Below are positions 1 to 33,439 of a DNA stretch of 54,024 nucleotides, in pieces; the first letter of the stretch is position 1, and every line of letters starts with the position of its first letter. The notes below the pieces were generated by a model. That model was given only the letters and a program-made list of their open reading frames with translations, was not told where the DNA came from and did not search any database. This stretch comes from an uncultured bacterium. GTDB taxonomy: Bacteria; Patescibacteriota; Minisyncoccia; Phycocordibacterales; PALSA-1337. The position numbers were made by a program, and so were the translations under genes. The stretch covers positions 1 to 54,024 of the forward strand of contig CAIQIZ010000011.1 in NCBI GenBank assembly GCA_903872035.1, read 5' to 3'.

Positions 1-3000
1 AGGAACCGGTACTAGTGGCGAAATGCAATCCATCAGTTGAAGTGGCGGTGTAGAGAAGGATGGTAGAACCATTGTTTGCTGGAGCGTTGAAGTATATGGT
101 GGCTTGACTGTCGCCGCTAGAGACGGAAGTGATCGTAGGTGCATCGGGAATAGTTGCCGGCATGACAGAAATACTGGCCGCCGAAGGAGAGCTTGTCCCA
201 GTACTATTGGTCGCAGTAACGGTAAATGTATAGCTAGCACCATTATTCAAACCACTGATTGTGATCGGAGAAGTGGTGCCAGTCGCAGTCTGTCCCCCGC
301 TTGAGGTCACCACATATCGGATTATCGCAGAGCTTCCATTATCTACTGGTGGAGTAAATGTGATGGTCGCGCTATTGGAACCAGCAACAGCGACTATATT
401 CGTCGGTGGATTTGGGATATTTTGATAATTGAAATACGGATAAGTCGAAGCTTCAGCAATCTTCCAGATAAGCGAGGTGAAGTCCCAACCCGTATAAGTA
501 GCCTGGTGCTGCATGACTGGAGTAGTCGTTCCTGTCATGACTCCGATTCCTGAATTCATAAGATCAGTGAGTGCCGTTCCATCTTGGGCAACTGCTACAA
601 GCAAACCATTTCCATAAGCAACAGCATTCCATAAGCGAGCCGAAGCACTTGTCTGGCTCGTCCAAGTGATTCCATTCGGTGAAGTCATGATTTGAGTCGC
701 GACTGCTCCGTCATATGCGACTGCTACGAATAGCCCATTCCCAAATGTGACTGATGTCCACTGTCTGGCCGAAGGACTTGTCTGACTAAACCAGTTAACT
801 CCATCAGTAGAAGTCATGATCTGTGTCGCGACGGCTCCATCGTATGCGACTGCCACGAATATTCCATTTCCATACGTTACTGAACGCCATTGACGAGCTG
901 AAGGGCTTGTCTGACTGAACCAATTCACCATATCAGAAGATGTCATGATCTGATTGGCAGTAGTACCATCTTGAGCGACAGCCACGAACATACCATTACC
1001 GTATGTGACAGAACGCCATTGACGAGCTGAAGGGCTAGTCTGAATGAACCACTGTATTCCATCAGATGATGTCATGATCTGGCTTGTTGTCGCAGTGCTG
1101 GAAGCAACCGCCACAAAATATCCATTTCCATAAGTCACTGAGTACCACTGCAGTCCCGACGGACTAGTTTGGTTCGACCAATTGATCCCATTGGAAGATG
1201 TCATGATCTGGGTCGTAGTCGCGGTACTTGAGGCGACTGCTACGAATATTCCATTACCGAAAGTGATCGAGGACCATTGACTGGCAGACGGGCTGGTTCG
1301 AGCTAGCCATACCTGACCGTCGATCGACGTCATGATCTGGTTAGCCGTGGTACCATCCGATGCTACTGCCACGAAAATACCATTGCCATAAGCAACTGAA
1401 CGCCATTGACGGGCAGACGTGCTTGTCGCAACTGCCCAAGCAAAGCCTCCAGTAACTCCATTCAATTTTCCAGAATATGTAGCATCGAAATAATCTGAAA
1501 CATAGCTGCCACCCAATGAAGAACCTACCAAACCTCCGACATATTGTGTACCTGATCCGCCAAGTGTTCCTGCACCACCATTTGAACCACCTGTGCCACC
1601 AGTACCTTTTGCACCACCAGCGCCACCAGTAGCACCTGAAGTTTTTGTCCCACTAGGCGCTCCGATCGAATATGCATTTGTTACAGCTGAAGTGTTATTT
1701 GTTCCCAAAAGGCCGCCGACAAATGCATTGGCACCCGTTCCGCCGTTGCCGCCGGTCAAACCGTTCCCATTGGCACCATTACCTAAAGTTCCGGTTCCAC
1801 CATTTCCACCAGGGCCGCCAGGGCCTCCATTACCGGGAGTCCCTGCCGTCGAGCTGGCAGAACCAGTCGAATAAGCATTGGTAATGACACCTGTATTTTG
1901 TCCGACCAAACCTCCACCATAGACATCACCTCCGTTACCACCGTTACCGCCGGCAGATCCATCTCTTCCTGTGCCTCCAGTCCCAGAAGTTCCACCGGTA
2001 CCTCCAGCTCCACCTTGACCACCTGTCCCACCAACGACACCATTACCTCCGACCATGGTGACATTGCCAGATGAGTAGCTTGTGTTAAAACTTCCTGTCG
2101 TAAGGTTCGCCCCAATAAAACCTCCAGCATAGCTCGTTCCGCCAGCGCCACCATTGCTGCCACCGAGACTTGTTCCACCGTTGCCGCCGTTTTGATTGCT
2201 AGTGGTTCCAGCATCACCTCCTCTTCCTGCGGTACTGCTAGCTCCAGCTGTCCCACCATTACCTCCAACAGTATAAATATTTCCGGAAGACCAAGAATCT
2301 TGAACTATTCCAGCGGTGAAATTTTCTCCAAGAAAACCACCGGCAAATAGGTTACCGCCAGTTCCAGCCGCTGCAGTCGTATTCTCGTTACCACCCACTC
2401 CGCCAGCACCGGTCGGACCACCATCCCCACCTCTACCACCGTTGCCCCCAGCACCACCAGCACCACCGGTTCCACCATAGACATTCACATTTCCAATAGA
2501 ATAATCGGTGTAAAGCGTTCCAACGTTGTAGCCAACAAAACCTCCGGCGTATGCAATACCCCCAGCCGATCCTGCAGTCCTAACACCAGCCTGTCCGCCA
2601 GTTCCGCCAGCTCCACTTGCCTGACCATCTCCGCCCCTACCACCATCACCTCCCTCTCCGCCAGCTCCACCATTGCCGCCATACAAAGTCACCGTCCCAG
2701 TTGACCATGAATCCTTGATCGTTCTTCCTGATTCGTTTGCGCCAGCAAAACCTCCGGCATAGGCGTTTGTTCCTGCACCCGAAGCCGCAGCAGATCCTCC
2801 AGCACCACCGTTGGCTCCGGCACCGCCAGCACCCCCTACTCCACCTTGAGCTCCGATACCTCCCGCTCCACCAGCACCTCCTATTCCGGCTCTGCCAATG
2901 ACATTGCTAGTAGAATATGAATTTAAATATATTGTTCCATTATTATCTCCGACAAAACCGCCAACATATAGCGCGCCAGGAAGCGCTGCCACTGCTGAAC

Positions 3001-6000
3001 CGCCAGTAAATCCATCGCCGCCTTTTCCTGCCGTTCCTGGTAATCCTCCGTCACCTCCTTTACCGCCGTTACCACCATTACCGCTAGTAGCATCGATAGT
3101 CGTACCAGTGGCATAACTGGAAATAGTAGTACTGGCAGCGTTTTGGTTATAGCCGATAAGACCTCCGGAATAATTTGCTCCACCGATTCCACCAGTTCCA
3201 CCAGTGCCTCCAGGGCCTCCGATATGAGTGCTAGTTCCAGCTGACCCATCGCCACCCTTTCCACCTTCCCCGCCTGTGCCACCGTTTTGAGACACAGACA
3301 ATACCGAGCTATTTGCAAAGGAACTAATAATTATTCCTGTCGCTTCATTGTTACCGATGAGACCGCCAGCGTAAATAGCTCCACCGTTACCACCTGCTCC
3401 ACCATTACCACCAGAAGCTGCAGTACCTCCTGAAAGCGTTCCTGATATTCCTCCCGGACCTCCCTTTGCCGCAGTACCAACGCTGCCACTATAGGCAAAA
3501 ACATTTCCTGTAGCATAAGAAGTATCTTCTACAATACCAGTATTGTCTCCGACCAGTCCGCCGACATAGACTGCTCCACCGTTACCTGTCGCACCGCCGT
3601 TACCGCCAACTCCACCCTTCGCGCTAGTTACTCCTGGGCCGCCATGACCGCCGATAACTCCGATCTTTCCATCTCCCGATGTTCCTCCGGTTGCGTAAAC
3701 ATTAGCTGTCGAATAGCTACTGCTTATAGATAAGTTCATGCTTGCGGTTGAAACCGTCCTTCCAACCAAACCTCCTGCATAAGCAGCACCTCCGGCACCG
3801 CTTGTACCTGCTGCACCAGTCGCGCCTCCAGCGCTGTCCGTTCCTCCATAACCAGATGTTCCTGCAGTTCCTCCATCACCACCCTTACCTCCCATAGCAA
3901 TCACTGTATTGCTCAGCGAATATGAGTTCGTATAATTTCCTTCTCCAGCACTTGCCCCACCATAGCCAACCAGACCTCCGGCGTCTGCCTCACCACCAAT
4001 ACCACCGTTACCACCTATACCGCCGTTACCGCCAGCCGCAGTTGAAGTACCGTCAGCCCCGATGCCACCTGTATTTCCCATGCTGCCTCTGCCACCTAAG
4101 GCATAGACATTTCCCGTCGCGTATGAATTTAGAATATCGTTCACGCCTCCAGCCAAAGTCACCTTGTTGTTTCCAATGAGACCTCCAGCATAAGCGGCAC
4201 CTCCAGTTGAAACTGTAACAGCACCGCCTCCGTTAAGACCGGTTACGTTAGGGCGTGAAAGAGCAGCGTCGCCAGATTTTCCACCCGTTCCAGCATTTCC
4301 ACCAGTTGAAGTTGCGCTGACTGTAGCGAACACTCCGATGTAATCTATCTGTCCTGATGTAAGAGCGCTGTATCCAACCAAACCTCCAGCATCTGCTTCG
4401 CCACCGGCACCTGACTGTCCTCCGAGGACTGCCCCGGCAGCGACGTGACCGGAAACTCCCAAAAAGGCGCTTCCGGCTGCTCCAGCAGAGCCGCCATCGC
4501 CGCCATAACCTCCTTGAACAACGACATTTCCGGTTGCATATGAATTGACTATTTGCAGAATCGGACCAGTCGTTCCGCTTATGCGACCAACCAAACCTCC
4601 ACCATAGGCTGCGCCGCCAGCGTATCCAACAGCACCGGCAATACCTACAGCAGATGTTCCACCTGATACTGCTCCGGAAGCACCGCCAGATCCGCTATTT
4701 CCTCCTGTTCCACTTCCACCTCCAAAGACTTTTATGTTTATATTTGAATATGAACCTTGAATAGTTCCAGTAGTACCAGGAAGATAATCGCCGACAAGTC
4801 CGCCGATAGCACGGAGTCCGCCGTAACCTCCCGCTCCACCAATGACACCGATGCCTCCCATGCTCGACACTGAACCTGCACCGCCACTTCCACCATTACC
4901 ACCTTTGCCTCCCGGTTGTTCGGTTCCAGAAATCGTGATTCCATCCGAGAAAGATGAAGTGATGTTTCCGGAACTGAACCCAACGAGCCCACCAATAACC
5001 GCTCCGACCGCTCCGCTAGCCCCGCCTCCAGTTCCAGCCGCCGCCCCTCCCTGTCCGCCAGCGCTACCAACTAATAGTCCAGAACCACCATTACCAGCAT
5101 TTCCGCCTTTACCAGCCGAACCGCCATTCGCAACAATATTTCCTTCTCCAGTCGTTGAATCATAACCTGCATATGATGAGACAATGTCCGATGTCGTATA
5201 GCCTATGAGACCTCCTGCGTATATAGCACCTGGGGCACCGCCGTTTCCACCGTTCGAACCGGCCGTTCCGCTAGTTGATGTAGCTGTCCTTCCATCAGTT
5301 CCATCCATACCAGATCCGCCAGTGATATTGAGTGTTGTTGTAGAAAATGAATTGGTCTCAACGACTCCTGTTGTATATCCAACAAGACCACCTGCATATA
5401 TCTGCCCTCCAGCACCTCCAGCACCTCCAGCACCACCCAGACCATATATTGCTGCTGCCACGTTGACTGATCCTGCACCGCCTATTCCTCCAAAGGCCGA
5501 GGTTCCCCCTGACGCACCATTGATTGTTATTGTTCCACCTTTTGCATATGAACTAGTGACCGTCCCCAAAGTGATGCGACCTACTAGACCTCCGACTTGA
5601 ACAGCCGTGCCGGCACCAGTGGCTCCTGATCCACCAGCACCACCGACTCCACCGACTCCACCGATCTCGCTTGCACCAAGAGAGCCATCTCCACCATCGC
5701 CGCCTCTAGATCCAGCACCACCTGTACCGGCGATCACTGTTATATCAGTCGATGTAGCATATGAATTTCTTATGACCGCCAAGATCGTAGTATCTTCTCC
5801 GACCAGTCCACCGACGTTCATGAGTCCGCTCGCCCCTCCAGCGCCGCCTGTGCCTCCCTGACCAGCAGTAACCGCAGTCGTGCTTCCAGATTTTCCAGCT
5901 GCGCCTCCGATTCCACCAACACCGCCGTTGCCGCCGATAGCTTGAATGAATCCGGAATAATGATAACTGTTGTCTACAGTTCCAGTGAATTGACCGATGA

Positions 6001-9000
6001 GACCGCCAGTATAATTTGCTGCGCCAGCACCACCGATTATACCGTTACCTCCATCACCTCCTTTAAATCCGTATCCACCGGTGTTACCTGTTCCGCCGCT
6101 TCCTCCCACACCGCCAGTTCCAGAAGTTCCACTAACTATACTGGTCGAATATGAATCGACGACCAGGCCGATCGTTCCTATACCGATGAGTCCGCCGGTG
6201 TATGCTATGCCTCCAAGCGCAGTCGCGCCGCTACCTCCAGCACCTCCATTGCCCCCGATGGCGGCATTGCCAGCACCACCATCACCACCTTTTCCAGCCG
6301 ATCCAGCACTACCGGCAGTCGAGGATGCCATACCCATCGAATACGAGTCGCTCACCAAAATGTACGAGCTCGTGAGTCCGACCAAACCACCGACATAAGT
6401 GTAACCACCAAAACCTCCGACGCCCCCGGTTCCACCAAGACCTCCAGCCATCGATGCCGCCCCATCGCCACCAGTTGCTCCTTTTGCTCCCAAACCTCCC
6501 ATCTGTCCAATGACCATCACTGTACCGGTTGCATAAGAAAATCTGATAGTATCTCCAGCACCAGCCGCTGCTCCGATGAGCCCCCCGGCATAAGTGTAGG
6601 CTCCTGACGCTCCTCCAGCACCTCCAGCTCCGCCTGCTCCTCCTTGAGCTCCGATAGTTCCTGGAGTTGATGTCCCACCCGCTCCTCCGATACCCGCAGT
6701 AATGGACACATTGTTAGTCGAATATATAGTATCGAAAAGAATATAGTTTGATCCGCTATAACCAACCGCGCCTCCAGCGTAGCTCGCACCGGTGACACCA
6801 CCGTTACCACCAGTTCCACCTGTGCCGTTCTTACCAGCACCTCCACCACCGACTCCACCATTTCCACCAGTACCTCCTATGCCGCCACTCGAACCTGAAA
6901 CGATGGTGATATTTCCTCCGATCGCATGTGATAAAGAAATATTTCCGTTACCCTGACCTGCCAAACCTCCAAGGTATATGACGCCACCGTTTCCACCGTT
7001 TCCACCAGTGCCTGCGACCCCTCCATTGAAGCCAGCCAAGCCTCCGCTTCCACCATCGCCACCGTTACCACCATTACCCCCGTTTCTTCCGCTGGCAGAT
7101 ATACTTCCGATAACTTCCGAATTCAATATTACTCCTGGATTATCTCCAGCCAACCCTCCAACCAAAGTCGTTCCACCAATACCTCCAGCTCCACCACTAC
7201 CTGCCTGACCTCCAGTTCCTACTGAAACGCTTCCCGTCGTAGACCCCGCATTTCCACCTCTTGCACCATTACCTCCCCAGCCACCGATGACATTTATAGA
7301 TGTAATAGTGTAATGAATATCTCTGATGATCCCAGTATTTGATCCGGCGATACCACCTCCATAATCAGCCCCTCCGTTACCTCCGGCTCCGCCCGTGCCA
7401 CCACCTCCACCAGCAGCTCCGGTTCCTGCTCCACCAACTCCACCGATACCACCATCACCTCCGCTTCCTCCAGTTGAATTAATCCAACCAAGATTATTTG
7501 CATTTATTATCGTAGTCCCCAACACTCCGTTATATCCCATGACTCCTCCGACATATGCAGCTCCGCCGATTCCACCAGCACCACCCGCGATACCTCCAAC
7601 TCCCGTACCGCTCGTTCCTGCAGCACCGCTTGCGCCGCCTGCTCCACCATTTCCAGCGCGACCGCCAGTAGAAGAAGCATCGCCTGTCGCAAATGTATCA
7701 TCGCTGACCAGAGCCAAGCTGTAACCGACCAAACCTCCAGCGGAAGCCACGCCACCAGTTCCACCTATTCCACCCTGTATACCCACAATGCCAGCATTTC
7801 CATTTGTTGAGTTTCCGCTCGCCGCTCCTGTCGTCCCATCTCCACCTCTACCTCCCGTAGCATAAGCATCTCCCGAAGCATGAGATCCCCCTTGGATATT
7901 TCCACCAGCCGCATTGTATCCGAGAAGCCCACCGGAATATGCTGCGCCACCAGTTCGAGAAGTTATATTCCCAGCCGTATCTCCCAAACCATTTGCGCCT
8001 CCTGTAAATCCCAAACCTCCACTAACCACTCCATTTCCTCCTTTGCCACCAGAGCCAGGCATGCCTCCATAACCTCCTGTTGAAGATGCTATACCTGTAG
8101 CATATGAATTATTGATTATTCCATTGCTGTAAGCTACCAAACCTCCAGCATATGCGGCGGCCGGTGCTGAAACTGCTCCACCCGCTCCTCCGGCAGCTCC
8201 CAAACCACCAGCTCCACCAACCCCACCATTACCAGAACCTCCACCGATCGCACTGACTGAGACCAGAGCAAAAGAATTCTGCACAACTCCATTCTGGGTA
8301 CCGCTCGTAAAATTGTTTCCAACGATACCTCCTGCATATGCAATGTTCCCAGCAGCTCCCGCTCCACCGATTCCACCCTGACCTCCAGCCGATCCAGTTC
8401 CTCCCACACCTCCGTCACCACCGTTGACTCCATTTCCTCCAGCGCTTCCAACTGCCAGAACTGAACCTAGTCCGATATTCGCATTAGTGATCGTCGTGAC
8501 GCTCTGTCCAGCTATGCCTCCGGCATATGCGATCGCCCCAGCTCCACCAGCGCCACCAGTTGCTCCAGCCGCACCAAGGTGACCAAGGCTACCGAACGCA
8601 CCGCTTCCAGCAATTCCAGCTGCAGCTCCATTTTTACCTGCTGATGCCACAGCTATGACCGTACTAGAAGCGTAAACATTTGTGATTGCGTTCGTGGTAT
8701 CTCCGGCGATTCCACCCGCGAAAGCCGCCGCACCAGCTCCACCAGTTCCTCCAGTCTGACCAGCAGCCGCAGTTCCAGTGCTTATCGTTGAAGTGCTGTT
8801 CCCGCCATTGCCGCCATAACCAGCATCACCGGCGATCCCAGCAAAGGCCGAAACATTTCCCAACATGAGCGATGTCGAAATCGATGTGATCACTCCAGCA
8901 TTTCTTCCGACAAATCCCCCAGCATAAGCGACTCCTCCCTGACCTCCATTACCTCCGGTTCCCGAAGCGCCTCCAGCAAATCCAGTTCCACCATTTTTTC

Positions 9001-12000
9001 CACCATCGCCACCGGACCCGCCTCTGCCTCCGTTACCTCCAGCTCCGCCCGAGACTGTCGTGCTAGCCGTAGATGAGGCATTGGAGAGGGTGCCGATGAT
9101 AAATTTTCCAATGATCCCACCTCCATCGGCTTCACCTCCGGTCCCACCGTTCTGTCCTAGCTGTCCAGCACCCCCAGTCGTAGTCGTACCGTTAGCTCCA
9201 TTGCCTCCGGTTCCGCCGATTCCTCCCATACCGGCATTTACGATAATATTTCCTGCAGAATATGCATTGAGAATATCTCCAGCATTCTGATAACCAACTA
9301 TTCCAGCCACGTAAGCAACACCACCGTTAGCACCGGCAGTTCCGGCAGTACCAGCCATACCAAGGATCCCATCTATCCCATTGGCTCCGGCGCCTCCGGC
9401 TCCGGATGTGCCGATAACATCGCCGATAGAATACACATTTGTGAGTATTCCTCCAGAAGAACCAACTGTGCCATCAGCACCGGTAATTCCACCCTCATAA
9501 ATAATCGCGCCAACGGTTGCCGTTCCACCAGGACCAGCCAGACCGCTTCCGCTTCCAGCACCTCCTGCTCCAGCGGCACCTCCAGCTCCAGCGGTTCCAT
9601 TTATTGCTCCAGTCATATGATAGCTATCAGTGATGAGAAGCGTGTTGTTACCAGCAACTCCTCCGACGTAGATTACTCCTCCGGCGCCACCAGTACCACC
9701 GCCGGCCGCAGTCAAATTCGCCCGACCAGCTGCTCCGTTACCACCCGCGCCTCCAGCCCCAGCAGTTGCTGATATAGCGTTCGTAGAAAATGAATACTGG
9801 ATAGTTCCAATGTTGCTACCAGCTAGCCCGCCAGCGTATGAGTTAGCGATCGTAGCATTGTTACCTGCACCGCCATTTCCTGTAGTTCCAGCTGCACCAC
9901 TCAGACCGCTCGTTGCCAGACCACCAAGCCCACCCGTTCCTCCGATACCACCGATTCCACCATGTAAGTAAATCAATCCGGTTGTTGAATAGGCAGAAAC
10001 GATCAACCCAGAATTTTGTCCTGCAATACCGCCGACCAAGGCTGTTCCTCCAGTTCCTCCAGCAGCGGCGGCATCAGCACCGCCGGCTCCTCCACCCGTT
10101 GCACCAGAACCGCCGATGCCTCCAGCTCCAGCGATTTTTCCATCTGCTCCAGTGGCAGAGACAGAACCTATAGAATATACCTGACCAGCAGTGCCGTTAA
10201 TTATTCCACCCGTTCCATTTTGAGCAACGATGCCTCCAGCGTAAGCCACACCTCCAGCACCGCCGCTTCCACCATTACCGCCAGCCGCCGTATTATTTCC
10301 AGGACTCGTGCTAGCATTCCCTCCCGCAGATCCAACAGTAGCTATTCCGCCAAATGATTGGATGGTCCCGGTTGCAAAAGATCCCGCTTCGATCACGGCA
10401 TTATTTACTCCGACCAAACCGCCGGCATATGAGAAACCTCCAGCGCCACCAGCCGCTCCGTTCCCACCAATACCAGAAATCGATGGGAGAGTTCCTCCGG
10501 CACCACCATTTCCAGCGAGACCTGCCGCCCCTCCAACACCTCCGATAGCTGTGACATTTCCTTCGGAATTTGAGGCTGTTATAGTTCCGGAATTTGTCCA
10601 GCCGACCAAACCTCCGGTATAGCTTACCCCGCCGGCGCCCGGCACTCCAACTGCTCCGCCGGCGCCTCCAATACCTGTCCCTAGAGTGTATCCGCCTTCA
10701 CCGCCGTTACCGCTGGCTCCACCTGTTCCTCCTATTCCCATGACCATAGCAGTCGAACATGAATTTGTAATATTGCCTTGTTGGAAGAATCCAACCAAGC
10801 CCCCAACGTAAACCGTACCACCAAGAGCCGCCGCATTGCTGACAGAAAGCCCTCCGGCTCCGGCCGTACTAGCACCGCTTGCTATCCACCCTCCTTTGCC
10901 TCCATAACCTCCCAAACCTCCTGTTCCACCCATACCGATGATGCTTCCAGAAACATTCACATTTGTGATCAGTCCGGAATTATAAGCGACTAGACCTCCG
11001 ACATACAAAGTCCCACCCGCCCCACCAGCTGTCGGAGTAGTCGTTCCATTGGCGTTTGCTGAAGCTGTTACTGTTCCACCCATTACCCCGTCGTTGCCGT
11101 TCACTCCTGCTGTTCCAGGAGTACTGGTAGCATTGATAGAAATATTTGAAAGAGTGACATTTCTGATTTGACTGACAGAATATCCGAATAGTCCGACATA
11201 GCTCGATGAAGTCGTCGAAATATAAAGATTGCTTATCTTATACCCACCACCATCAAAATCGCCAGTGAAGTTTGTTGTGGCATTTCCGATAGGGATGAAT
11301 CCGGTGTTCTGATTCCACGCGGTCGTGGATGCGGCATCGATGTCGTTAAACAATTTGAACGAGCTCGTCAAGCTAGTCCTCATTGCCTGCAAACCGTAAA
11401 CATCATAGATCATGAACGGATCAGCGCTTATGCCTGTGCCAGTGTATCGACGAAATGTCCCGGCATTCAGGGCGAAGTTACCTGCCGCAGAAAAAGTGTT
11501 TACAGCAGGATTCATAGCAGTGAATGTGGCCGCTGATGTTTCCACAAAGTTACCGGATTGCCCACTAGTATTGACTATGAAAAGAGGTGCGTTCTGGACG
11601 ATTGTCCCCGTATATCCAGTCGAAGTTCCAATAGTAAACGAACCGACCGTCGTGGTCGCATTGATAGTCACGATTGAAGCACCCGTGCCTGAAAAGTTAT
11701 CGAAAAAGACGCTGGTATTAGGACCTGGCAGGTTCCCACTTCTAGCTATGCCATTCGACGAAGTAGCCCAATGGTTCGTATCATCAGACCAGTTTCCAGT
11801 CCCATTGACCCAGTAAGCGATATTCGGAGCTGGGTCGACGACATAGTCTATGTCGGTGTTCCCAATGATCTTCAGATCAAAAACTGCCGTCGGAATCAAG
11901 AGATCTGTGAGCAATATCCGATATTTGCCATCCTGGTCGATCTGGAAAGTGGCCTGGAGCGGACTGCCTTCGGTAGTATTTCCTAGAGCATCAGTGTAGA

Positions 12001-13207
12001 CAGGATATACCTGTATGGATGTCGGTCCTGACCCAACATGAGGCCGCGCATAGATAGTGATATCGTTCGAACTCTCCAGCCCCCTATCAAAAGTGACTCG
12101 AACATACTGCCCATCAGCCAGATCCGCAAAATTCTGATCCAGCATTCCGACAAGATCGAAAATATCGCCAATAGCATTCAAGTTAGAATCCAACTGCAAA
12201 GCGTTTGAAATATAAATTATTTGAAATGTTTGCGTCGACAAGTGCGGCACGATCCAACCAACGTGGTCGATAAATCCATTACCATCGTCATCATAAGCAA
12301 CGAATTGCATGTCGGCGCTCCCGTTGTTCTGCCATTTGATCTTGATCTTATCTTCTTCACCGACTTTGTATATTTCCGGTATAGCGATGCGAACAGGAAC
12401 ATCGATCATCGGCTGTACTGCTTCCTGCTCATCCGTCGCCGAGATAGTCACCAGTTTTCCATTCGCAGTCTCTTGCTCGACAATTTTTGGAGGTGTTGTC
12501 GTCGCCACCGATTCAGTAGTCGAGGCCGTTGATGTCGCTAACTGTTCGGTAGTCGAAGCAGTGATAGTGATAGCTGTTGTTGAAGCGGTAGTCCCTATTG
12601 AAGAGGTCGCCACTAGCAAAGTTGTGCTCGCTTGTGGGAGAGTAGTTGTCCCTTGAAGATTCGTGCCACCACTTGAACCACCGACTGAAGTTGGTTCTGT
12701 TGTCGAAGCTGTCGATGTAGAAGTTTCGCCTGGATTCGTAGACGATGCAAAAGAAGTTGTTGAGGAAGCCGTATATGAAGAAGTGGAGGTCGCAAATTCC
12801 GGAAAAGTTGATCCCGAGCCTGTTCCTGGATTTACAGGTTCTATGACAGGGGCTGCAGAAGACGCATTCGTTGATTCTGATGTCGAAGCGACTGATCCTG
12901 ATGATTGCGCATTTCCATCTGATGACGATGGTGACACAGTCGGCGACGGTGAGGTCGATGGTGTCGGCGTAGGATCTGGAGCAACACTGACCGACGGTGT
13001 CGGCGTAGGGACACTTGATGGTGAAGCTGATGGAGTTGCTGACTGAACATCAGGAGAGACTGATGGAGAAACTGCGCTTTCTACCGGTGGAGCCACTGCG
13101 GCATCCCCCGAAGCAACGTCGTCAGCGAGTGCTATGCGAGAGGAACCGACGAGAAGAAGCACGACCAAAATTAAGTTCACACCTAGACGAAAGGTTCGGG
13201 CCATCAT
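1..13207 (-). CDS. Giant secreted repetitive surface protein (signal peptide; P/S/T linker; GLUG-like/Gly-rich repeats; propeller-like repeats; Fn3-like), truncated at left window edge
   Basis: Minus-strand ATG at 13207 (or 13204) gives (M)MARTFRLGVNLILVVLLLVGSSRIALADDVASG..., a clear signal peptide. Frame checked by hand near 12.4, 11.9, 10.0, 8.9, 6.0, 3.0, 2.0, 1.4 and 0.1-0.3 kb, always open and protein-like. No minus ORF in the supplied track below 13.2 kb has this frame (all have end mod 3 = 0, this one is 1), so no in-frame stop closes it inside the window. Confidence 0.93.
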   Translation of the reverse strand, partial: MMARTFRLGVNLILVVLLLVGSSRIALADDVASGDAAVAPPVESAVSPSVSPDVQSATPSASPSSVPTPTPSVSVAPDPTPTPSTSPSPTVSPSSSDGNAQSSGSVASTSESTNASSAAPVIEPVNPGTGSGSTFPEFATSTSSYTASSTTSFASSTNPGETSTSTASTTEPTSVGGSSGGTNLQGTTTLPQASTTLLVATSSIGTTASTTAITITASTTEQLATSTASTTESVATTTPPKIVEQETANGKLVTISATDEQEAVQPMIDVPVRIAIPEIYKVGEEDKIKIKWQNNGSADMQFVAYDDDGNGFIDHVGWIVPHLSTQTFQIIYISNALQLDSNLNAIGDIFDLVGMLDQNFADLADGQYVRVTFDRGLESSNDITIYARPHVGSGPTSIQVYPVYTDALGNTTEGSPLQATFQIDQDGKYRILLTDLLIPTAVFDLKIIGNTDIDYVVDPAPNIAYWVNGTGNWSDDTNHWATSSNGIARSGNLPGPNTSVFFDNFSGTGASIVTINATTTVGSFTIGTSTGYTGTIVQNAPLFIVNTSGQSGNFVETSAATFTAMNPAVNTFSAAGNFALNAGTFRRYTGTGISADPFMIYDVYGLQAMRTSLTSSFKLFNDIDAASTTAWNQNTGFIPIGNATTNFTGDFDGGGYKISNLYISTTSSSYVGLFGYSVSQIRNVTLSNISINATSTPGTAGVNGNDGVMGGTVTASANANGTTTPTAGGAGGTLYVGGLVAYNSGLITNVNVSGSIIGMGGTGGLGGYGGKGGWIASGASTAGAGGLSVSNAAALGGTVYVGGLVGFFQQGNITNSCSTAMVMGIGGTGGASGNGGEGGYTLGTGIGGAGGAVGVPGAGGVSYTGGLVGWTNSGTITASNSEGNVTAIGGVGGAAGLAGNGGAGGTLPSISGIGGNGAAGGAGGFSYAGGLVGVNNAVIEAGSFATGTIQSFGGIATVGSAGGNASTSPGNNTAAGGNGGSGGAGGVAYAGGIVAQNGTGGIINGTAGQVYSIGSVSATGADGKIAGAGGIGGSGATGGGAGGADAAAAGGTGGTALVGGIAGQNSGLIVSAYSTTGLIYLHGGIGGIGGTGGLGGLATSGLSGAAGTTGNGGAGNNATIANSYAGGLAGSNIGTIQYSFSTNAISATAGAGGAGGNGAAGRANLTAAGGGTGGAGGVIYVGGVAGNNTLLITDSYHMTGAINGTAGAGGAAGAGGAGSGSGLAGPGGTATVGAIIYEGGITGADGTVGSSGGILTNVYSIGDVIGTSGAGGAGANGIDGILGMAGTAGTAGANGGVAYVAGIVGYQNAGDILNAYSAGNIIVNAGMGGIGGTGGNGANGTTTTGGAGQLGQNGGTGGEADGGGIIGKFIIGTLSNASSTASTTVSGGAGGNGGRGGSGGDGGKNGGTGFAGGASGTGGNGGQGGVAYAGGFVGRNAGVITSISTSLMLGNVSAFAGIAGDAGYGGNGGNSTSTISTGTAAAGQTGGTGGAGAAAFAGGIAGDTTNAITNVYASSTVIAVASAGKNGAAAGIAGSGAFGSLGHLGAAGATGGAGGAGAIAYAGGIAGQSVTTITNANIGLGSVLAVGSAGGNGVNGGDGGVGGTGSAGGQGGIGGAGAAGNIAYAGGIVGNNFTSGTQNGVVQNSFALVSVSAIGGGSGNGGVGGAGGLGAAGGAGGAVSAPAAAYAGGLVAYSNGIINNSYATGIASSTGGYGGMPGSGGKGGNGVVSGGLGFTGGANGLGDTAGNITSRTGGAAYSGGLLGYNAAGGNIQGGSHASGDAYATGGRGGDGTTGAASGNSTNGNAGIVGIQGGIGGTGGVASAGGLVGYSLALVSDDTFATGDASSTGGRAGNGGAGGASGAAGTSGTGVGGIAGGAGGIGGAAYVGGVMGYNGVLGTTIINANNLGWINSTGGSGGDGGIGGVGGAGTGAAGGGGGTGGAGGNGGADYGGGIAGSNTGIIRDIHYTITSINVIGGWGGNGARGGNAGSTTGSVSVGTGGQAGSGGAGGIGGTTLVGGLAGDNPGVILNSEVIGSISASGRNGGNGGNGGDGGSGGLAGFNGGVAGTGGNGGNGGVIYLGGLAGQGNGNISLSHAIGGNITIVSGSSGGIGGTGGNGGVGGGGAGKNGTGGTGGNGGVTGASYAGGAVGYSGSNYILFDTIYSTNNVSITAGIGGAGGTSTPGTIGAQGGAGGAGGAGGASGAYTYAGGLIGAAAGAGDTIRFSYATGTVMVIGQMGGLGAKGATGGDGAASMAGGLGGTGGVGGFGGYTYVGGLVGLTSSYILVSDSYSMGMASSTAGSAGSAGKGGDGGAGNAAIGGNGGAGGSGATALGGIAYTGGLIGIGTIGLVVDSYSTSIVSGTSGTGGVGGSGGTGNTGGYGFKGGDGGNGIIGGAGAANYTGGLIGQFTGTVDNSYHYSGFIQAIGGNGGVGGIGGAAGKSGSTTAVTAGQGGTGGAGGASGLMNVGGLVGEDTTILAVIRNSYATSTDITVIAGTGGAGSRGGDGGDGSLGASEIGGVGGVGGAGGSGATGAGTAVQVGGLVGRITLGTVTSSYAKGGTITINGASGGTSAFGGIGGAGSVNVAAAIYGLGGAGGAGGAGGQIYAGGLVGYTTGVVETNSFSTTTLNITGGSGMDGTDGRTATSTSGTAGSNGGNGGAPGAIYAGGLIGYTTSDIVSSYAGYDSTTGEGNIVANGGSAGKGGNAGNGGSGLLVGSAGGQGGAAAGTGGGASGAVGAVIGGLVGFSSGNITSSFSDGITISGTEQPGGKGGNGGSGGAGSVSSMGGIGVIGGAGGYGGLRAIGGLVGDYLPGTTGTIQGSYSNINIKVFGGGSGTGGNSGSGGASGAVSGGTSAVGIAGAVGYAGGAAYGGGLVGRISGTTGPILQIVNSYATGNVVVQGGYGGDGGSAGAAGSAFLGVSGHVAAGAVLGGQSGAGGEADAGGLVGYSALTSGQIDYIGVFATVSATSTGGNAGTGGKSGDAALSRPNVTGLNGGGAVTVSTGGAAYAGGLIGNNKVTLAGGVNDILNSYATGNVYALGGRGSMGNTGGIGADGTSTAAGGNGGIGGNGGIGGEADAGGLVGYGGASAGEGNYTNSYSLSNTVIAMGGKGGDGGTAGTSGYGGTDSAGGATGAAGTSGAGGAAYAGGLVGRTVSTASMNLSISSSYSTANVYATGGTSGDGKIGVIGGHGGPGVTSAKGGVGGNGGATGNGGAVYVGGLVGDNTGIVEDTSYATGNVFAYSGSVGTAAKGGPGGISGTLSGGTAASGGNGGAGGNGGAIYAGGLIGNNEATGIIISSFANSSVLSVSQNGGTGGEGGKGGDGSAGTSTHIGGPGGTGGTGGIGGANYSGGLIGYNQNAASTTISSYATGTTIDATSGNGGNGGKGGDGGLPGTAGKGGDGFTGGSAVAALPGALYVGGFVGDNNGTIYLNSYSTSNVIGRAGIGGAGGAGGIGAQGGVGGAGGAGANGGAGGSAAASGAGTNAYAGGFAGANESGRTIKDSWSTGTVTLYGGNGGAGGEGGDGGRGGDGQASGAGGTGGQAGVRTAGSAGGIAYAGGFVGYNVGTLYTDYSIGNVNVYGGTGGAGGAGGNGGRGGDGGPTGAGGVGGNENTTAAAGTGGNLFAGGFLGENFTAGIVQDSWSSGNIYTVGGNGGTAGASSTAGRGGDAGTTSNQNGGNGGTSLGGSNGGAGGTSYAGGFIGANLTTGSFNTSYSSGNVTMVGGNGVVGGTGGQGGAGGTGGTSGTGGTGRDGSAGGNGGNGGDVYGGGLVGQNTGVITNAYSTGSASSTAGTPGNGGPGGPGGNGGTGTLGNGANGNGLTGGNGGTGANAFVGGLLGTNNTSAVTNAYSIGAPSGTKTSGATGGAGGAKGTGGTGGSNGGAGTLGGSGTQYVGGLVGSSLGGSYVSDYFDATYSGKLNGVTGGFAWAVATSTSARQWRSVAYGNGIFVAVASDGTTANQIMTSIDGQVWLARTSPSASQWSSITFGNGIFVAVASSTATTTQIMTSSNGINWSNQTSPSGLQWYSVTYGNGYFVAVASSTATTSQIMTSSDGIQWFIQTSPSARQWRSVTYGNGMFVAVAQDGTTANQIMTSSDMVNWFSQTSPSARQWRSVTYGNGIFVAVAYDGAVATQIMTSTDGVNWFSQTSPSARQWTSVTFGNGLFVAVAYDGAVATQIMTSPNGITWTSQTSASARLWNAVAYGNGLLVAVAQDGTALTDLMNSGIGVMTGTTTPVMQHQATYTGWDFTSLIWKIAEASTYPYFNYQNIPNPPTNIVAVAGSNSATITFTPPVDNGSSAIIRYVVTSSGGQTATGTTSPITISGLNNGASYTFTVTATNSTGTSSPSAASISVMPATIPDAPTITSVSSGDSQATIYFNAPANNGSTILLYTATSTDGLHFATSTGS
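540..1430 (-). repeat. About 7 tandem 43-aa propeller-like repeats in the giant protein
   Basis: Translated repeats such as WFSQTSPSARQWRSVTYGNGIFVAVAYDGAVATQIMTSTDGVN; gtcatgat(c/t)tg recurs at ~685, 814, 943, 1069, 1198, 1330, spacing about 129 bp. Confidence 0.85.
1520..11010 (-). repeat. About 49 degenerate tandem repeats, period about 197 bp (66 aa): GLUG-like rung plus GGX-rich loop
   Basis: Recurrent plus-strand signature such as accaaacctccagcatatgc (minus: (A)YAGG(F/L)VG) at ~1527, 1710, 1906, 2114 ... 10604, 10794, 10990. Example units: YVGGFVGDNNGTIYLNSYSTSNVIGRAGIGG; TGGLIGQFTGTVDNSYHYSGFIQAIGGNGGVGGIGG. Confidence 0.9.
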
Positions 13208-13896
13208 TTGATACAATTTTATCAAGATATCATGACCGTGCATAGCGAAAATACACAGTAAATGTAAGCGTAATTTGAGCATTCCAATCAGACAGAGTAT
13301 TATCGAAAATCGGGTGACTTTAAGCACCTTCGCCTTACAAATTTACCCCGTAATTCAAGCAAAATGAGTGATAGAAATCAGGCCAAATCGACAAACTACG
13401 TATATATATTGTACAAATATTTTCTATTTCAAAATTGGTGACCTTTATAAACCTTAATAGTCTTTAATAGTTAATTGGAATACCACGGCTAACTTTCGTC
13501 CTCACCGTTTATGCACAAAATTTCTATGCGGTTGGCGGTCTCGAGTATTTCAATCGACGTTCTGAACAGCTTGAATCATGTAGGTCCTTCCGGAAGACAT
13601 GTTCAACCTTGTTCTAAATGAAGCGCCCAAGCAACTATGGTCAACGTCTCTACTCCCCACCGATCAACGGGCTCTGCAGTTATCCACACCAGTCTGTTCA
13701 AAATGTCCAAAAAAGCACATAAAATTTCCCTGACATTCATTTGACTACTTAACATTGATTTGCTTCAAACAATTACGACCAAGTTGACATCGGTAATTAT
13801 TGTGGTAATGTCAGCGACGGATTGTTATAAATATGCAATTCCATTGCCTGCCATATAAATTGACTGGCACATGAAAATACAGAAAGACAGGGTTCT

Positions 13897-15635: not shown

Positions 15636-18600
15636 CTATCTACTAAGTACCGCGTGCATAATGCGGCTAAATGCCCAATAAACGCTAGCAGTGAATTCTG
15701 ACGAACCGTTGTTTAGATCCATCGCAGCCGGACTACTTGAAGGGCTCGGTGTGTGACTCGGGGTTGGTGACGGAGATGACGATGGTGTTGGTGATGCTGT
15801 CACCGATACAGAAGGCGTCGGACTTGGCGCGTGACTAATGGAAGGTGTCGGGGATGGTGAGCTAGATTGGCTAGCTGAGGAACCGGCATAATAACTAGAT
15901 GTTCGAGCAGATTCGGACGCAGGTGCTGGTGTAGATGAAGGAGTAGGTGAAGGAGTCGGAGCTGATACTGATCCTTGTGAATACGGAATAGGTGTAGGTG
16001 ACGATGCGATACCGGAGATCGTCAGCGTCATATTGTTACTTGAACCTGTAACTGGGTGTGTGACTTGTACGGAATATACACCCACTGGAACATTTGGTAC
16101 GAATTGCAATGTAGAACCATTAGCCGAAACTACGGAATATGTCTTTGGTGTAGAGGGACGCCCCGCCAATTGTGCCATCAAAGTAACGACGTTTGCTGCA
16201 GTCTTAGAGAAGCGGACACCCGTGATCGTGACTGTCTGATTTGGAGTGGCAGGATTAGGTGAGAGCGAATTGAGATATGGCGAGACTTCGCCTATGATCA
16301 CGACGTTGTTCGTGGTGTTAGCAGTTGTTACAGGTATGAATTGGAGATTTGGATATTGACCGAGTACGACTTGGGTCAACGAACCATGATAAGCTCCAGC
16401 GAACATCTGCTTGGGATTGGCGGTCATAGTAACGGTGAAAGTCGACACTGTATTTGCTGGTAAGTTGAAATAACCGAAGCCGTCATCTGTCGCACCTCGT
16501 TGAGTATAAGTTTCCGGACCGCTCCAATTGAAGCCGTTTCCGGTCACATCGAAGATAGAGAACGCTCCTTCCTTCTGAAGCTTTTGTGGGACATTGCCTG
16601 GATTTATCCCGACCGTAAACGTATTAACCAAACCCGCTTCCCCACCAGACGGGTCATACTTCAAAGCTAGAGTCGGTGTACCAACGATCGTAACCGAAGC
16701 CGGCGTAGCGTTTGGATCCGTTATAGTGAACTCACCACTCTTACCACTCAACCCGGAATTGTTATCCTGTATGACGATTTTGTAGCTACCCGACGGGATA
16801 TCCGCCAAGACCCAAGCATTTCCATTGTAGTAATAATATTTACCAACTGTCCAGGTGTACGTGTTGTTTGCATAACTGGCAAGCCGATTTGGGTCGGCCA
16901 GATAATACATGTTGTAACCATTTGAATCTTCTGCCCAGATCTGCATCAATTGATTTCCTCCTCCAGTCCAAACGATATCTGCATGTGACCCAACTGAGAG
17001 GTTACTACCGGTTGCCGGAGCTGTGACAGATATAGGATCGAGAGCACCGAAAGTCAACGGGTTAGTCGAGGCATTGAAAGTAAACGGGACGACCTTATAA
17101 TTTGGTTGGAAACTATCAAGCCGCACACGATATGTATCCTTCAGCAAGCCATCACGTCTCACTGACCCCGTGAGCACAAACCGCGCTGTAGAATTCGGAG
17201 ATATTAGATAATATGGCCCAGGAACATCTGTAACATTCGTGCTTGGCATATCATATGACAGGTTTATGTTCGAATTATGATTGTCACCAGTTCCAACCAA
17301 TGTATAGGCAAAGGCACCAGACCTTAACACTTGTAATGCGGAAGGGCCAGCATGAATATCCACATTAAAAGTGGCATTCGCCCAATTCTGGTCACCCTGA
17401 CTGGTCTGCAAAGTCCCAACACCAACCACATTCGCTGTAACTCCTGGTGGCCGGATCTTCGTCAAAGCACAATGATTCAGAAAAGCAGATAGATGCGATT
17501 CATATACCTGCTTTGAGGTGAATGGTAAAGTTACAGCTATCGGATGATAAGTTTGCCCCATAGCCTGAGCAAAACTGGCCGAAGTGAAGTAGCTCGCGTA
17601 TTGGTAGAATCGTATCTTCAAATACTCGATCAGCATGGTCTTGTCGACATTGCTGTATGGGAACTGATTGACTAGAGCGATCATTTGATCGAGCGATGCT
17701 GAACTTCCAAATATGTTCCTAGCGATTCCATAATATGACGATTGATACGAAGGACGAATATCGTTGGACAGACCACTTATGAGTTGTGAGACGTACGTAT
17801 TGGCAGGATCCGCAACAGTCATGCCACACGAGAAAGCCGCGTCGAATCCATGTGGTATTATCTCTGTCTTACCAGTGGTCAAGTTTATGCCCCAATCTTC
17901 ATTATGAAGAGGCGCCACATCTTCCAGATTTAGAACTTCCGTCAACAAGAACAACCTGATCGTCGTATCCGGATCGAATGACAACTGATGGATATCCGTA
18001 TTATCTGTCTTGCTCACGATAGAGGCTGAAGTCAGTCTGTTTATCACATTAGGGGTCCAAGAAGCTTTCCCACCTTGGTTATCACCGGATTCATAAAGAC
18101 TCGAATTCAGATTGAATTGGGTTGTAAATGGAACCTCATCACTGCTTTCATTGTCTCTTGCGACCATCATGTAACGGAATGTGCGCCCGGCATATCCAGG
18201 ATCGGTAGTGAGGAATCTTACATTGGCGAAACCGACGATATCCGTTGTAGGAACACCAAAAGCTCTGAATATCTTGAATATTATGTATTCTCGGAGGTTG
18301 ACATTCAGTTGACCGCTGAAACCGATATCACTGCCATTGGCAGTGTAATCGTTCCAACCATCACATTCGGGAATGAGCCGGACTTTCTTATACTTCAATA
18401 TCGACTTCCCGTCATAAGTGCTCAAACCGTGGAACTTACCATCTGGATTTCCTGAAGAAAAAGTGACATTCAGGACTGGCGGACGACATTCTGAACGCAT
18501 ACCGCCCTTCCATTCGTATTTTATGCTCCAATCTTGGATAGTAGCGCCGTTTTGGCTTTCCTTCAGATCTCCAGAAGGATTGGGGGTTGTTCCAGTAATC

Positions 18601-18764
18601 AATAAGGACTGGCCGAGAGTATCGAATGTAAAATCGTGCATCGGATACGTGCTCGTCTGAGCAATCGCTAGTTTAGGAAACACCATCAGATAACCGACCA
18701 CGAGTGACGCCAAAGTGCCGCTTAATATAGCGGCTATAATAAGCGGACGAGATTTATTTTTCAT
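15636..18764 (-). CDS. Secreted multidomain protein (possible CotH-kinase-like N-terminal region, IPT/TIG domain, C-terminal P/S/T linker)
   Basis: 1042 aa; N-terminal signal/TM; IIPHGFDAAFSCG and HNEDWGINL resemble the CotH catalytic region; SPYLNSLSPNPATPNQTVTITGVRF is TIG-like; C-terminal PTPSPTPSSTP... linker. Confidence 0.75.
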   Translation of the reverse strand: MKNKSRPLIIAAILSGTLASLVVGYLMVFPKLAIAQTSTYPMHDFTFDTLGQSLLITGTTPNPSGDLKESQNGATIQDWSIKYEWKGGMRSECRPPVLNVTFSSGNPDGKFHGLSTYDGKSILKYKKVRLIPECDGWNDYTANGSDIGFSGQLNVNLREYIIFKIFRAFGVPTTDIVGFANVRFLTTDPGYAGRTFRYMMVARDNESSDEVPFTTQFNLNSSLYESGDNQGGKASWTPNVINRLTSASIVSKTDNTDIHQLSFDPDTTIRLFLLTEVLNLEDVAPLHNEDWGINLTTGKTEIIPHGFDAAFSCGMTVADPANTYVSQLISGLSNDIRPSYQSSYYGIARNIFGSSASLDQMIALVNQFPYSNVDKTMLIEYLKIRFYQYASYFTSASFAQAMGQTYHPIAVTLPFTSKQVYESHLSAFLNHCALTKIRPPGVTANVVGVGTLQTSQGDQNWANATFNVDIHAGPSALQVLRSGAFAYTLVGTGDNHNSNINLSYDMPSTNVTDVPGPYYLISPNSTARFVLTGSVRRDGLLKDTYRVRLDSFQPNYKVVPFTFNASTNPLTFGALDPISVTAPATGSNLSVGSHADIVWTGGGNQLMQIWAEDSNGYNMYYLADPNRLASYANNTYTWTVGKYYYYNGNAWVLADIPSGSYKIVIQDNNSGLSGKSGEFTITDPNATPASVTIVGTPTLALKYDPSGGEAGLVNTFTVGINPGNVPQKLQKEGAFSIFDVTGNGFNWSGPETYTQRGATDDGFGYFNLPANTVSTFTVTMTANPKQMFAGAYHGSLTQVVLGQYPNLQFIPVTTANTTNNVVIIGEVSPYLNSLSPNPATPNQTVTITGVRFSKTAANVVTLMAQLAGRPSTPKTYSVVSANGSTLQFVPNVPVGVYSVQVTHPVTGSSNNMTLTISGIASSPTPIPYSQGSVSAPTPSPTPSSTPAPASESARTSSYYAGSSASQSSSPSPTPSISHAPSPTPSVSVTASPTPSSSPSPTPSHTPSPSSSPAAMDLNNGSSEFTASVYWAFSRIMHAVLSR

Positions 18765-19646: not shown

Positions 19647-21113
19647 TCACCTCCAGTTTGGGAACCACATCCTGGACTGTAATTGTTCTTGTGAGAGAGG
19701 GGTACCGTATGATATCGGACTCCAGAAAATGAAAGCTGTCAGAGCCAATAGGATGGCCGCGCCTATCAGGATATATTTGCGCCTGCCTTTGAGCTGATCA
19801 AGAATGTAGGCGATCGCCAATATTGAAAAAACAAGGGCAGCCTGATAATGGTAGAGGAACATGACTCGGCCAATGAAAATGAATGGCAGGAAATTCACAA
19901 GGAATCCGACGGCGATGAATACCGGTGCACGATGGACGATCTTTCGATCTTTCACCAATGATCCGATCGACAGCAACCATAGACCGTTCACGATGAGGCC
20001 GGTCATGACCAAGGCTCCAAGCCAGTATATGAAGGGATTGCCGAAGAGATAAATATAAGAATTGACATCTCGGTCAGCGATCGGCGCCGTTGCAGTCCCC
20101 TCCACCATCGCTGCCGTCGACGAAGCTGACCCCTGCCAGTAGAATATCGGTCTGGCCATGAATGGCCAGGTATACCATTTGCTGGAATATTGATGGGCAG
20201 CATTCATGTGAGCGTTCACACTGTACATCTGTTCATTCAGTTCAAAAAATTTGACTAGGAAACCCGGCGTAGAGATGGTCGGATCGTTACGGTATGTACT
20301 ATCGATCAAAGTCTTTTGGAATGCTGCCGACATGAAGGCGTTTCCCTGGCCAGACTTTGGCAACAAGGTAAAATGCACAGCGAAAGTCACCATGTACACG
20401 GTTAGACCGACGACCAACAGCACGACAAAAAACTTGATGGCATGCTTTATAGCCACCATCTTTCGAGGCGCTCCGACGATATCCCAGAGTTCGATAAGCA
20501 CTATGATCAGGCTGAAGGCTAAACCTGTCCATTTGAAATCGAAAGCCACCGCTGCCCATAGAGCCGTTAAGATAAGCCATCCACAACGTCGCATTTCGAA
20601 GCGCTTCGTAAATGTAACCGGCACTTTCAAGGAACGATATTGCAGATACGCAGCCAAGGATGTAAATCCTGCCAAGATAAGCATGCTATCCAGAAAGGCG
20701 AACCTGGATTGGACAAGCAAAGAATTCTCCAGGATTATGAAAAGGCCTGCCGAAAAAGCCGCCAAAGCAGAAAAGCGCAGACGCCGACAGAGCCAGTATA
20801 CGACCAGAGGCAATAGGATACCGGCTAGAAGAGGCAGAAGCCGATACCAAATGTATGTATCCGTCTGATACTTGTTCCCGATGTTCGAATAATCATGATT
20901 GATGCCGCTGATACCAGAAAGATGACCCGCAGCGGCGAGCAAGAGCTTCCCCAACGGCGGGTGAGGATCGAAATAGTATGTTCCCAAAGAGTAATCGTTG
21001 GCATACGTCACGAAATAGACCTCGTCAAAGACGACTTCAGCCGGACGCGGAAAGAACAAAAGATGCGTAGCGGCGCTTAGGACAAAGAGTGCCAATAGAA
21101 GGTATTTATTCAT
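19647..21113 (-). CDS. PMT-family (GT39) dolichyl-phosphate-mannose--protein mannosyltransferase-like membrane protein
   Basis: 488 aa polytopic; N-terminal FDEVYFVTYANDYSLGTYYFDPHPPLGKLLLA matches the PMT acidic/HPPLGK motif. Confidence 0.85.
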   Translation of the reverse strand: MNKYLLLALFVLSAATHLLFFPRPAEVVFDEVYFVTYANDYSLGTYYFDPHPPLGKLLLAAAGHLSGISGINHDYSNIGNKYQTDTYIWYRLLPLLAGILLPLVVYWLCRRLRFSALAAFSAGLFIILENSLLVQSRFAFLDSMLILAGFTSLAAYLQYRSLKVPVTFTKRFEMRRCGWLILTALWAAVAFDFKWTGLAFSLIIVLIELWDIVGAPRKMVAIKHAIKFFVVLLVVGLTVYMVTFAVHFTLLPKSGQGNAFMSAAFQKTLIDSTYRNDPTISTPGFLVKFFELNEQMYSVNAHMNAAHQYSSKWYTWPFMARPIFYWQGSASSTAAMVEGTATAPIADRDVNSYIYLFGNPFIYWLGALVMTGLIVNGLWLLSIGSLVKDRKIVHRAPVFIAVGFLVNFLPFIFIGRVMFLYHYQAALVFSILAIAYILDQLKGRRKYILIGAAILLALTAFIFWSPISYGTPLSQEQLQSRMWFPNWR

Positions 21114-32206: not shown

Positions 32207-33439
32207 ATGTCCTCAATCATCGAAATCAACGGCTTGGGAAAGAAATACCCCATCGTTCACGACAAGGTCCAATATGGGACTTTGCGAGATTCTTTGATGG
32301 GCTTTGCCAAGAATCCATTCGCCAAGCAAACGACTCATGAAGAATTCTGGGCTTTGAAGGACATCGACCTTTCCATAGAAAAAGGCGATATCGTAGGCAT
32401 CATCGGCAAAAACGGCGCCGGTAAATCCACTCTCTTGAAGATCATAGCTGGCATAGCCAAACCGACGGAAGGTAACGTCAAACTTTATGGTCGCATATCT
32501 TCCCTGTTGGAAGTCGGCACCGGCTTCCACCCAGAACTCACTGGCCGAGAGAACATCTTCCTGAACGGCGTCATCCTCGGCATGACCAGAAAGGAGGTTG
32601 CCAAGAAGTTCGACCAGATCGTCGACTTCGCCGGTATCGAGAAGTTCCTCGACACGCCCGTCAAGCATTACTCTAGCGGCATGTACGTCCGCCTAGCTTT
32701 TGCAGTTGCGGCACATCTTGAACCGGATATCTTGATCGTAGATGAAGTTTTAGCAGTCGGAGATGCAGAATTTCAGAAGAAGTGTCTGGGGAAGATGGAA
32801 GATGTATCCAAGAAAGAGGGACGGACCGTATTATTTGTCAGCCATAATATGCAAGCGATCTCTTCTCTTACCAAACAGTGTCTTTACCTAAATGGCGGAC
32901 ATATCCGATCATACGGAGAAACTACGGACGTAACATCCCAATATCTTTCAAATATTTCAGCAAGAAACGCTATATATGTGGACGAGACGCCCTATAAACA
33001 GCCACGTATCACCGAAGTCGAAGCAGTCACCTCTTTACCTAGCGGTGTCCACGAATTCGGAAAACGGCTTTCCTTTAAGATAAAGGTAGAAACCAAGACA
33101 GTCCTCCGTGGCGCGGCCGTATCGTTCAAAATAATCAACAGCTTAGGTATTTCCACAACTCACATCCTTACCTTGGACAGCGAGATCCCATTGTGTCGAA
33201 CTGCTGGATCATATGAATTGGTATGCACTATCCCAAGGCCGCGATTGTATCCGGATAATTATTCGCTGACGGTGTACTTTGCGGAGAAATCGACCGAAAC
33301 GCTTTTTGAGACGCTACAGAATGTATGCCACTTCGAGGTCATCAAGATCGACGAGTTTAGAGACTACTATTGGGGTGTTCGAAATGCGGTCTATATCGAA
33401 GATGGCGCTTGGGTAATCAAAAAACATGAAAATCTTTAA
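32207..33439 (+). CDS. ABC polysaccharide export ATPase with Wzt-like C-terminal domain
   Basis: 410 aa; Walker A GKNGAGKST, signature YSSGMYVRLAFAVA, Walker B DILIVDEVL, plus ~150-aa C-terminal beta domain. Confidence 0.93.
   Translation: MSSIIEINGLGKKYPIVHDKVQYGTLRDSLMGFAKNPFAKQTTHEEFWALKDIDLSIEKGDIVGIIGKNGAGKSTLLKIIAGIAKPTEGNVKLYGRISSLLEVGTGFHPELTGRENIFLNGVILGMTRKEVAKKFDQIVDFAGIEKFLDTPVKHYSSGMYVRLAFAVAAHLEPDILIVDEVLAVGDAEFQKKCLGKMEDVSKKEGRTVLFVSHNMQAISSLTKQCLYLNGGHIRSYGETTDVTSQYLSNISARNAIYVDETPYKQPRITEVEAVTSLPSGVHEFGKRLSFKIKVETKTVLRGAAVSFKIINSLGISTTHILTLDSEIPLCRTAGSYELVCTIPRPRLYPDNYSLTVYFAEKSTETLFETLQNVCHFEVIKIDEFRDYYWGVRNAVYIEDGAWVIKKHENL

Follow-up and report, generated by a model that had tools for sequence, protein, structure and literature searches.

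A giant gene at one end of the 54,024-nucleotide window analysed here (the whole of contig C11 of this genome, hereafter G000), taken together with its apparent remainder on a second contig, C23, probably encodes a secreted fibre with a minimum length of about 5,020 aa. As we reconstruct it, the fibre would carry a distal repeat array of fixed length and an Fn3 stalk of variable length, and would be docked to the cell by a cohesin-dockerin joint. The genome that invests in this protein belongs to a member of the Patescibacteria and is small: 1.05 Mb in 31 contigs, listed as 100% complete.

The giant open frame

A minus-strand frame read directly from the sequence is free of stops across 2..13327 (4442 codons). 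From the ATG at position 13207 it encodes 4402 aa up to the window edge, as the first-pass annotation had proposed, and each of the five other frames over 1-13207 contains 133 to 257 stops. In a codon comparison of the giant gene with two orthologs, third positions differ at 64-66% and first and second positions at 27-31%; third positions thus differ about twice as often, indicating that selection acts on the protein, repeats included. The order of parts that had been described (signal peptide, Ser/Pro/Thr linker, beta-rich region, repeats, propeller-like repeats and Fn3-like sequence) holds, with the signal peptide judged by eye. All of the following features lie on the minus strand.

2..13207, minus strand: stop-free portion of the giant gene, encoding 4402 aa from the ATG at 13207; cut by the end of C11, with its presumed continuation on bases 1-1650 of C23
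13121..13207, minus strand: signal peptide of about 29 aa, by eye
12488..13120, minus strand: linker rich in Ser, Thr and Pro, with low conservation (about 30% identity to the G071 ortholog over the first 200 aa)
11006..12481, minus strand: N-terminal domain together with the stretch leading into the array; identity among the five orthologs 52-64%
1457..11005, minus strand: array of 49 repeats, each about 65 aa long and made up of a GLUG-like beta part and two Gly-Gly-X runs
488..1453, minus strand: propeller-like region of seven blades, which the four orthologs in other genomes lack
173..409, minus strand: first Fn3 domain, a Pfam match
2..172, minus strand: start of a second Fn3 domain, truncated where the contig ends

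The N-terminus, MMARTFRLGVNLILVVLLLVGSSRIALA followed by DD, resembles a signal peptide. The first part of the N-terminal domain (11006..12481) is common to other long Patescibacteria surface proteins, and the region includes a stretch like annotated GLUG-motif proteins. Where about 49 GLUG-like repeats had been counted at first, segmentation yields exactly 49. A single unit passes the Pfam GLUG model (PF07581; 22.6 bits against a cut-off of 20.5) and the other units fall below it, so that "GLUG-like" is the apt term for the remainder. The seven blades match Pfam EPTP (3.3e-10), and the sequence first called Fn3-like gives a full Pfam Fn3 match (1.7e-8). An NCBIfam search returned no match above its cut-offs, and the window contains no Rfam matches or tRNAs.

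A protein-O-mannosyltransferase gene (19647-21113, minus strand; Pfam PMT 1.7e-43, PMT_4TMC 1.4e-44) lies some 6 kb upstream of the gene for the giant, and its product could glycosylate the giant's Ser/Thr-rich linker. Envelope or surface genes elsewhere in the window encode a Wzt-like ABC transporter (32207-33439, plus strand), an O-antigen ligase-like protein (41193-43097, minus strand) and a type II/IV secretion (pilus-type) ATPase (46730-48469, minus strand). Two long frames, of 1042 aa (15636-18764, minus strand) and 571 aa (37416-39131, plus strand), have no Pfam match at 1e-5.

The C-terminal end on a second contig

Where does the protein end? Because the window edge is also the contig edge, it is the contig that truncates the protein, not the choice of window. 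A search of the genome's contigs for Fn3 (PF00041) gave ten matches, with values above the Pfam cut-off on both C11 (2.9e-11) and C23 (three domains, up to 3.4e-14), the latter being the sole other contig with a match at its end. The first base of C23 already lies inside an Fn3 domain, and from there a frame of 549 aa (bases 1-1650) runs through further Fn3 domains to a stop, with a type I dockerin at its very end (PF00404; 2.7e-10, scoring 40.7 bits where the cut-off is 22.9, over residues 495-543). The stop and the C-terminal anchor that the first-pass annotation had sought beyond the window were thus located on C23, but the anchor is a dockerin, not a sorting signal or a membrane helix, and, lying on another contig, it could not be seen within the window.

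The end of C11 and the beginning of C23 fall at different positions within an Fn3 domain and differ in sequence, so that about 74 aa or more are unassembled between them, and the gap possibly spans several Fn3 domains. The join rests on orthologs in other genomes. In G071, which belongs to the same order and another family, an unbroken frame of 5194 aa extends from signal peptide to dockerin, without the propeller (50% identity to the C11 part over 4377 aligned columns and 58% to the C23 part). Two further unbroken orthologs, of 6437 and 5025 aa, occur in Candidatus Falkowbacteria (on a chromosome) and Candidatus Wolfebacteria. The three contiguous proteins have the same order of parts, with identities of 50-54% to the C11 part and 58-63% to the C23 part, and from them we infer that C11 and C23 carry the halves of one gene. 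On this join the complete giant would measure at least about 5,020 aa, of which the C11 part would be the N-terminal nine tenths. That the two contigs are unrelated, C11 ending in one truncated giant and C23 beginning with the end of another Fn3 protein, would agree with the lack of DNA overlap between their ends, yet it is extremely unlikely given that no other contig has Fn3 at its end, that three orthologs run unbroken between these same two ends, and that the G275 ortholog, a fourth, stops short in the Fn3 region just as in G000.

A dockerin followed by a membrane-anchored cohesin

A cohesin-type gene starts 21 bases after the dockerin gene on C23. Its 339-aa product consists of a leader, a domain, a Pro/Thr-rich linker, one membrane helix and a short charged tail. 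The protein itself does not match Pfam Cohesin (PF00963), a model that is matched by 7 of its 13 aligned relatives (best 5.3e-9). For one relative (L060), 75% identical over the domain, a model was obtained with a pLDDT of 96.6, and a fold search with this model placed cohesins at all of PDB ranks 1-46, headed by that of OlpC from Clostridium thermocellum. When the cohesin protein and its profile were searched against PDB sequences, no convincing match emerged; the best profile match, 7urp (E 0.013), is a cohesin by title and too weak to use. The relatives, together with the modelled fold of one of them, point to the C23 domain being a cohesin, present as one copy and without a match to a carbohydrate-binding module. 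The C-terminal dockerin of the giant and the adjoining, apparently membrane-anchored cohesin support a surface location, in agreement with the early view that a small genome here encodes a giant secreted surface protein, albeit one longer than could be seen in the window.

An array of constant length beside a variable stalk

The array was segmented by script with a unit spacing of 56-74 aa, and the repeat alignment is based on disjoint blocks. Segmentation gives 49 units each in G000, G071, G275 and G806; in G805 the script finds 48, and a forty-ninth (YVGGVVN...) can be read by eye just beyond the script pattern. Reciprocal best matches between units of different species pair the same unit number almost without exception (37 of 37 between G000 and G071, 44 of 44 between G000 and G805). 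The Fn3 region is variable, a script counting 10 to 22 copies of its motif across the three complete proteins, and the propeller blades occur in G000 alone among the five. Repeats that stay constant in number and order across distant species, beside a stalk that varies, are unusual for a repeat protein and suggest that the length of the 49-repeat array itself matters.

What shape might such an array take? A four-unit model (pLDDT 85.7) has beta strands in each unit, and its fold matches, all weak and with low TM-scores, are led by the polyproline II bundles of springtail antifreeze proteins, followed by IgA1 protease. A PDB sequence search with a repeat block gave nothing convincing. From the four-unit model and these weak matches we read the array as an elongated, probably stiff rod. 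It resembles the GLUG-motif surface proteins (PF07581, which include the IgA1 protease beta-helix) in its one unit above the Pfam cut-off, in its lead-in region, which is like annotated members, and in the weak fold match to IgA1 protease; it differs in that its units of about 65 aa carry two long Gly-Gly-X insertions and are fixed in number at 49. With the antifreeze proteins of springtails and snow fleas, which are polyproline/polyglycine II bundles, it shares the Gly-Gly-X runs and the best, though weak, fold matches, but in this bacterial surface protein the runs alternate with beta parts, and the likeness serves as a lead only. We also take the Gly-Gly-X runs to resemble mycobacterial PGRS domains.

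Rarity and apparent transfer of the giant gene

The N-terminal region of the giant was matched in 3 of 384 genomes of the phylum, G000 included, and in only two over nearly its whole length. Identities of the array run counter to those of DNA ligase: relative to G000, the ligase is 58-59% identical in G275 and G071 versus 45% in G805 and G806, whereas the array is 53-55% identical in the former pair and 57-59% in the latter. G805 and G806 share 72.5% identity in the array and 49.8% in the ligase. This contradiction, combined with the rarity of the giant, suggests that the gene moved horizontally, as judged from one marker and five genomes. Viral contigs gave short partial matches only, and matches on plasmids were limited to the GLUG-type part.

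Long proteins of G294, G321, G199 and G415 were rejected as orthologs, sharing only the N-terminal domain and having no GLUG array or dockerin by the motifs used. Giants of 2663 to 5673 aa in the same order (L153, L154, L155, L156 and L157) share only the N-terminal domain; in L153, L154 and L155 a C-terminal end resembling a membrane helix, by eye, takes the place of the dockerin.

Spread of the dockerin-cohesin operon

A scan of species genomes identified 471 relatives of the C23 cohesin, from which 78 loci were kept, 69 of them with room upstream. The 78 loci include members of many Patescibacteria groups, among them Kaiser-, Adler-, Taylor-, Nomura-, Doudna-, Falkow- and Wolfebacteria. A dockerin-ended gene lies directly before the cohesin gene in 60 of the 69 (62 with two more by a stricter pattern), a fraction that may not hold for remote loci because these were picked for their similarity to the cohesin of C23. 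Elsewhere in the same loci the dockerin motif appears in 2 of 926 frames. Usually two successive cohesin proteins are encoded, about 300 and 580 aa long, and a C-terminal membrane helix is predicted for most of them. Cohesin is present in 97 of 384 sampled genomes of the phylum and Pfam dockerin in 43 of 101 relatives. Among the complete dockerin-ended proteins of such operons, the shortest has 278 aa and the longest more than 6,000. A second operon in G000 (L057, contig C15, 1794-5697) has the order dockerin, cohesin, cohesin, with products of 497, 317 and 501 aa.

We tentatively propose, with somewhat less than even confidence, that Patescibacteria possess a widespread plug-in display system, in which a dockerin-ended protein is paired with one or more membrane cohesins, the cargo varies and the plug stays constant, and of which the 49-repeat variant would be a horizontally moved form that mediates cell contact. 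In the open-licence full-text literature on dockerins and giant proteins in this group we recognised no description of the operon or of the giant, and we regard the novelty of both as provisional.

A fibre for contact?

How would the fibre work? The giant would leave the cell by its signal peptide, and its C-terminal type I dockerin would bind the cohesin of the adjoining membrane protein, so that the fibre is held on the cell via a non-covalent plug. The N-terminus would then point outward, with the N-terminal domain at the far end, followed by the elongated array of 49 GLUG/Gly-Gly-X repeats, by the propeller in G000 only, and by an Fn3 stalk whose number of domains differs by species. We take the purpose of such a fibre to be contact with another cell or surface.

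Would that other cell be a host? Patescibacteria include epibionts. In a Saccharibacterium epibiont, the dockerin-domain, envelope-linked protein SEML1_0315 is reported to be essential, and in the passage cited a role in adhesion or glycan attack is speculated (PMC10633639). Together these two points make it plausible, by analogy, that the giant contacts a host cell. The likeness is one of description, a dockerin-domain protein tied to a Patescibacterium envelope, and the same passage names no cohesin partner, operon or giant repeat protein.

The main rival of a contact fibre is a structural or protective coat, in which docked fibres would form a surface layer or matrix with no particular partner cell. 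The Gly-rich repeats hold few charged residues (147 in about 3,265), neither a domain with a known ligand nor a ligand-binding domain was recognised in the giant, and an array of constant length would suit a layer of even thickness. The rare and patchy presence of the gene and its apparent transfer fit an accessory contact protein better, and although this is not decisive we consider a coat rather unlikely.

Could the giant instead be the structural member of a cellulosome-like complex, in which dockerin enzymes assembled on cohesins digest polysaccharide? Cohesin and dockerin genes reported as expressed in Ca. Shapirobacterales, a Microgenomates bacterium, have been read in this way (PMC9123182). 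The resemblance to our loci lies in the two domains and the shared phylum; the reading there is of cellulose degradation, and the passage in question describes neither an operon arrangement nor non-enzymatic cargo. In G071 an 843-aa protein with a polysaccharide deacetylase domain, putative Ig domains and a weak dockerin (L055, 62-3304), followed by a 234-aa cohesin-like membrane protein, represents possible enzyme cargo. Enzyme domains are scarce, however: 17 of 18 operon proteins scanned have a Pfam dockerin without a recognised catalytic domain, and the remaining one carries a polysaccharide deacetylase. Nor do the cohesin proteins form a multi-cohesin scaffoldin with a carbohydrate-binding module; the loci mostly encode two separate proteins, each a cohesin with a membrane helix. 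A degradative complex is therefore very unlikely. The type I cohesins OlpC and OlpA of C. thermocellum (PDB 4dh2 and 3ul4) offer a parallel in that an exported protein's terminal dockerin meets an anchored partner of cohesin fold. The present system differs from those of cellulosome producers in its single cohesin with a membrane helix, encoded right after the presumed partner, and in its mostly non-enzymatic sampled cargo, the dockerin-cohesin pairing itself being predicted. This suggests that the joints serve display and not cellulose digestion.

The conserved operon, dockerin gene first and cohesin gene next, bears on the attachment of such tiny, mostly uncultured bacteria to other cells, and would give them a definite means of retaining exported proteins at the surface.
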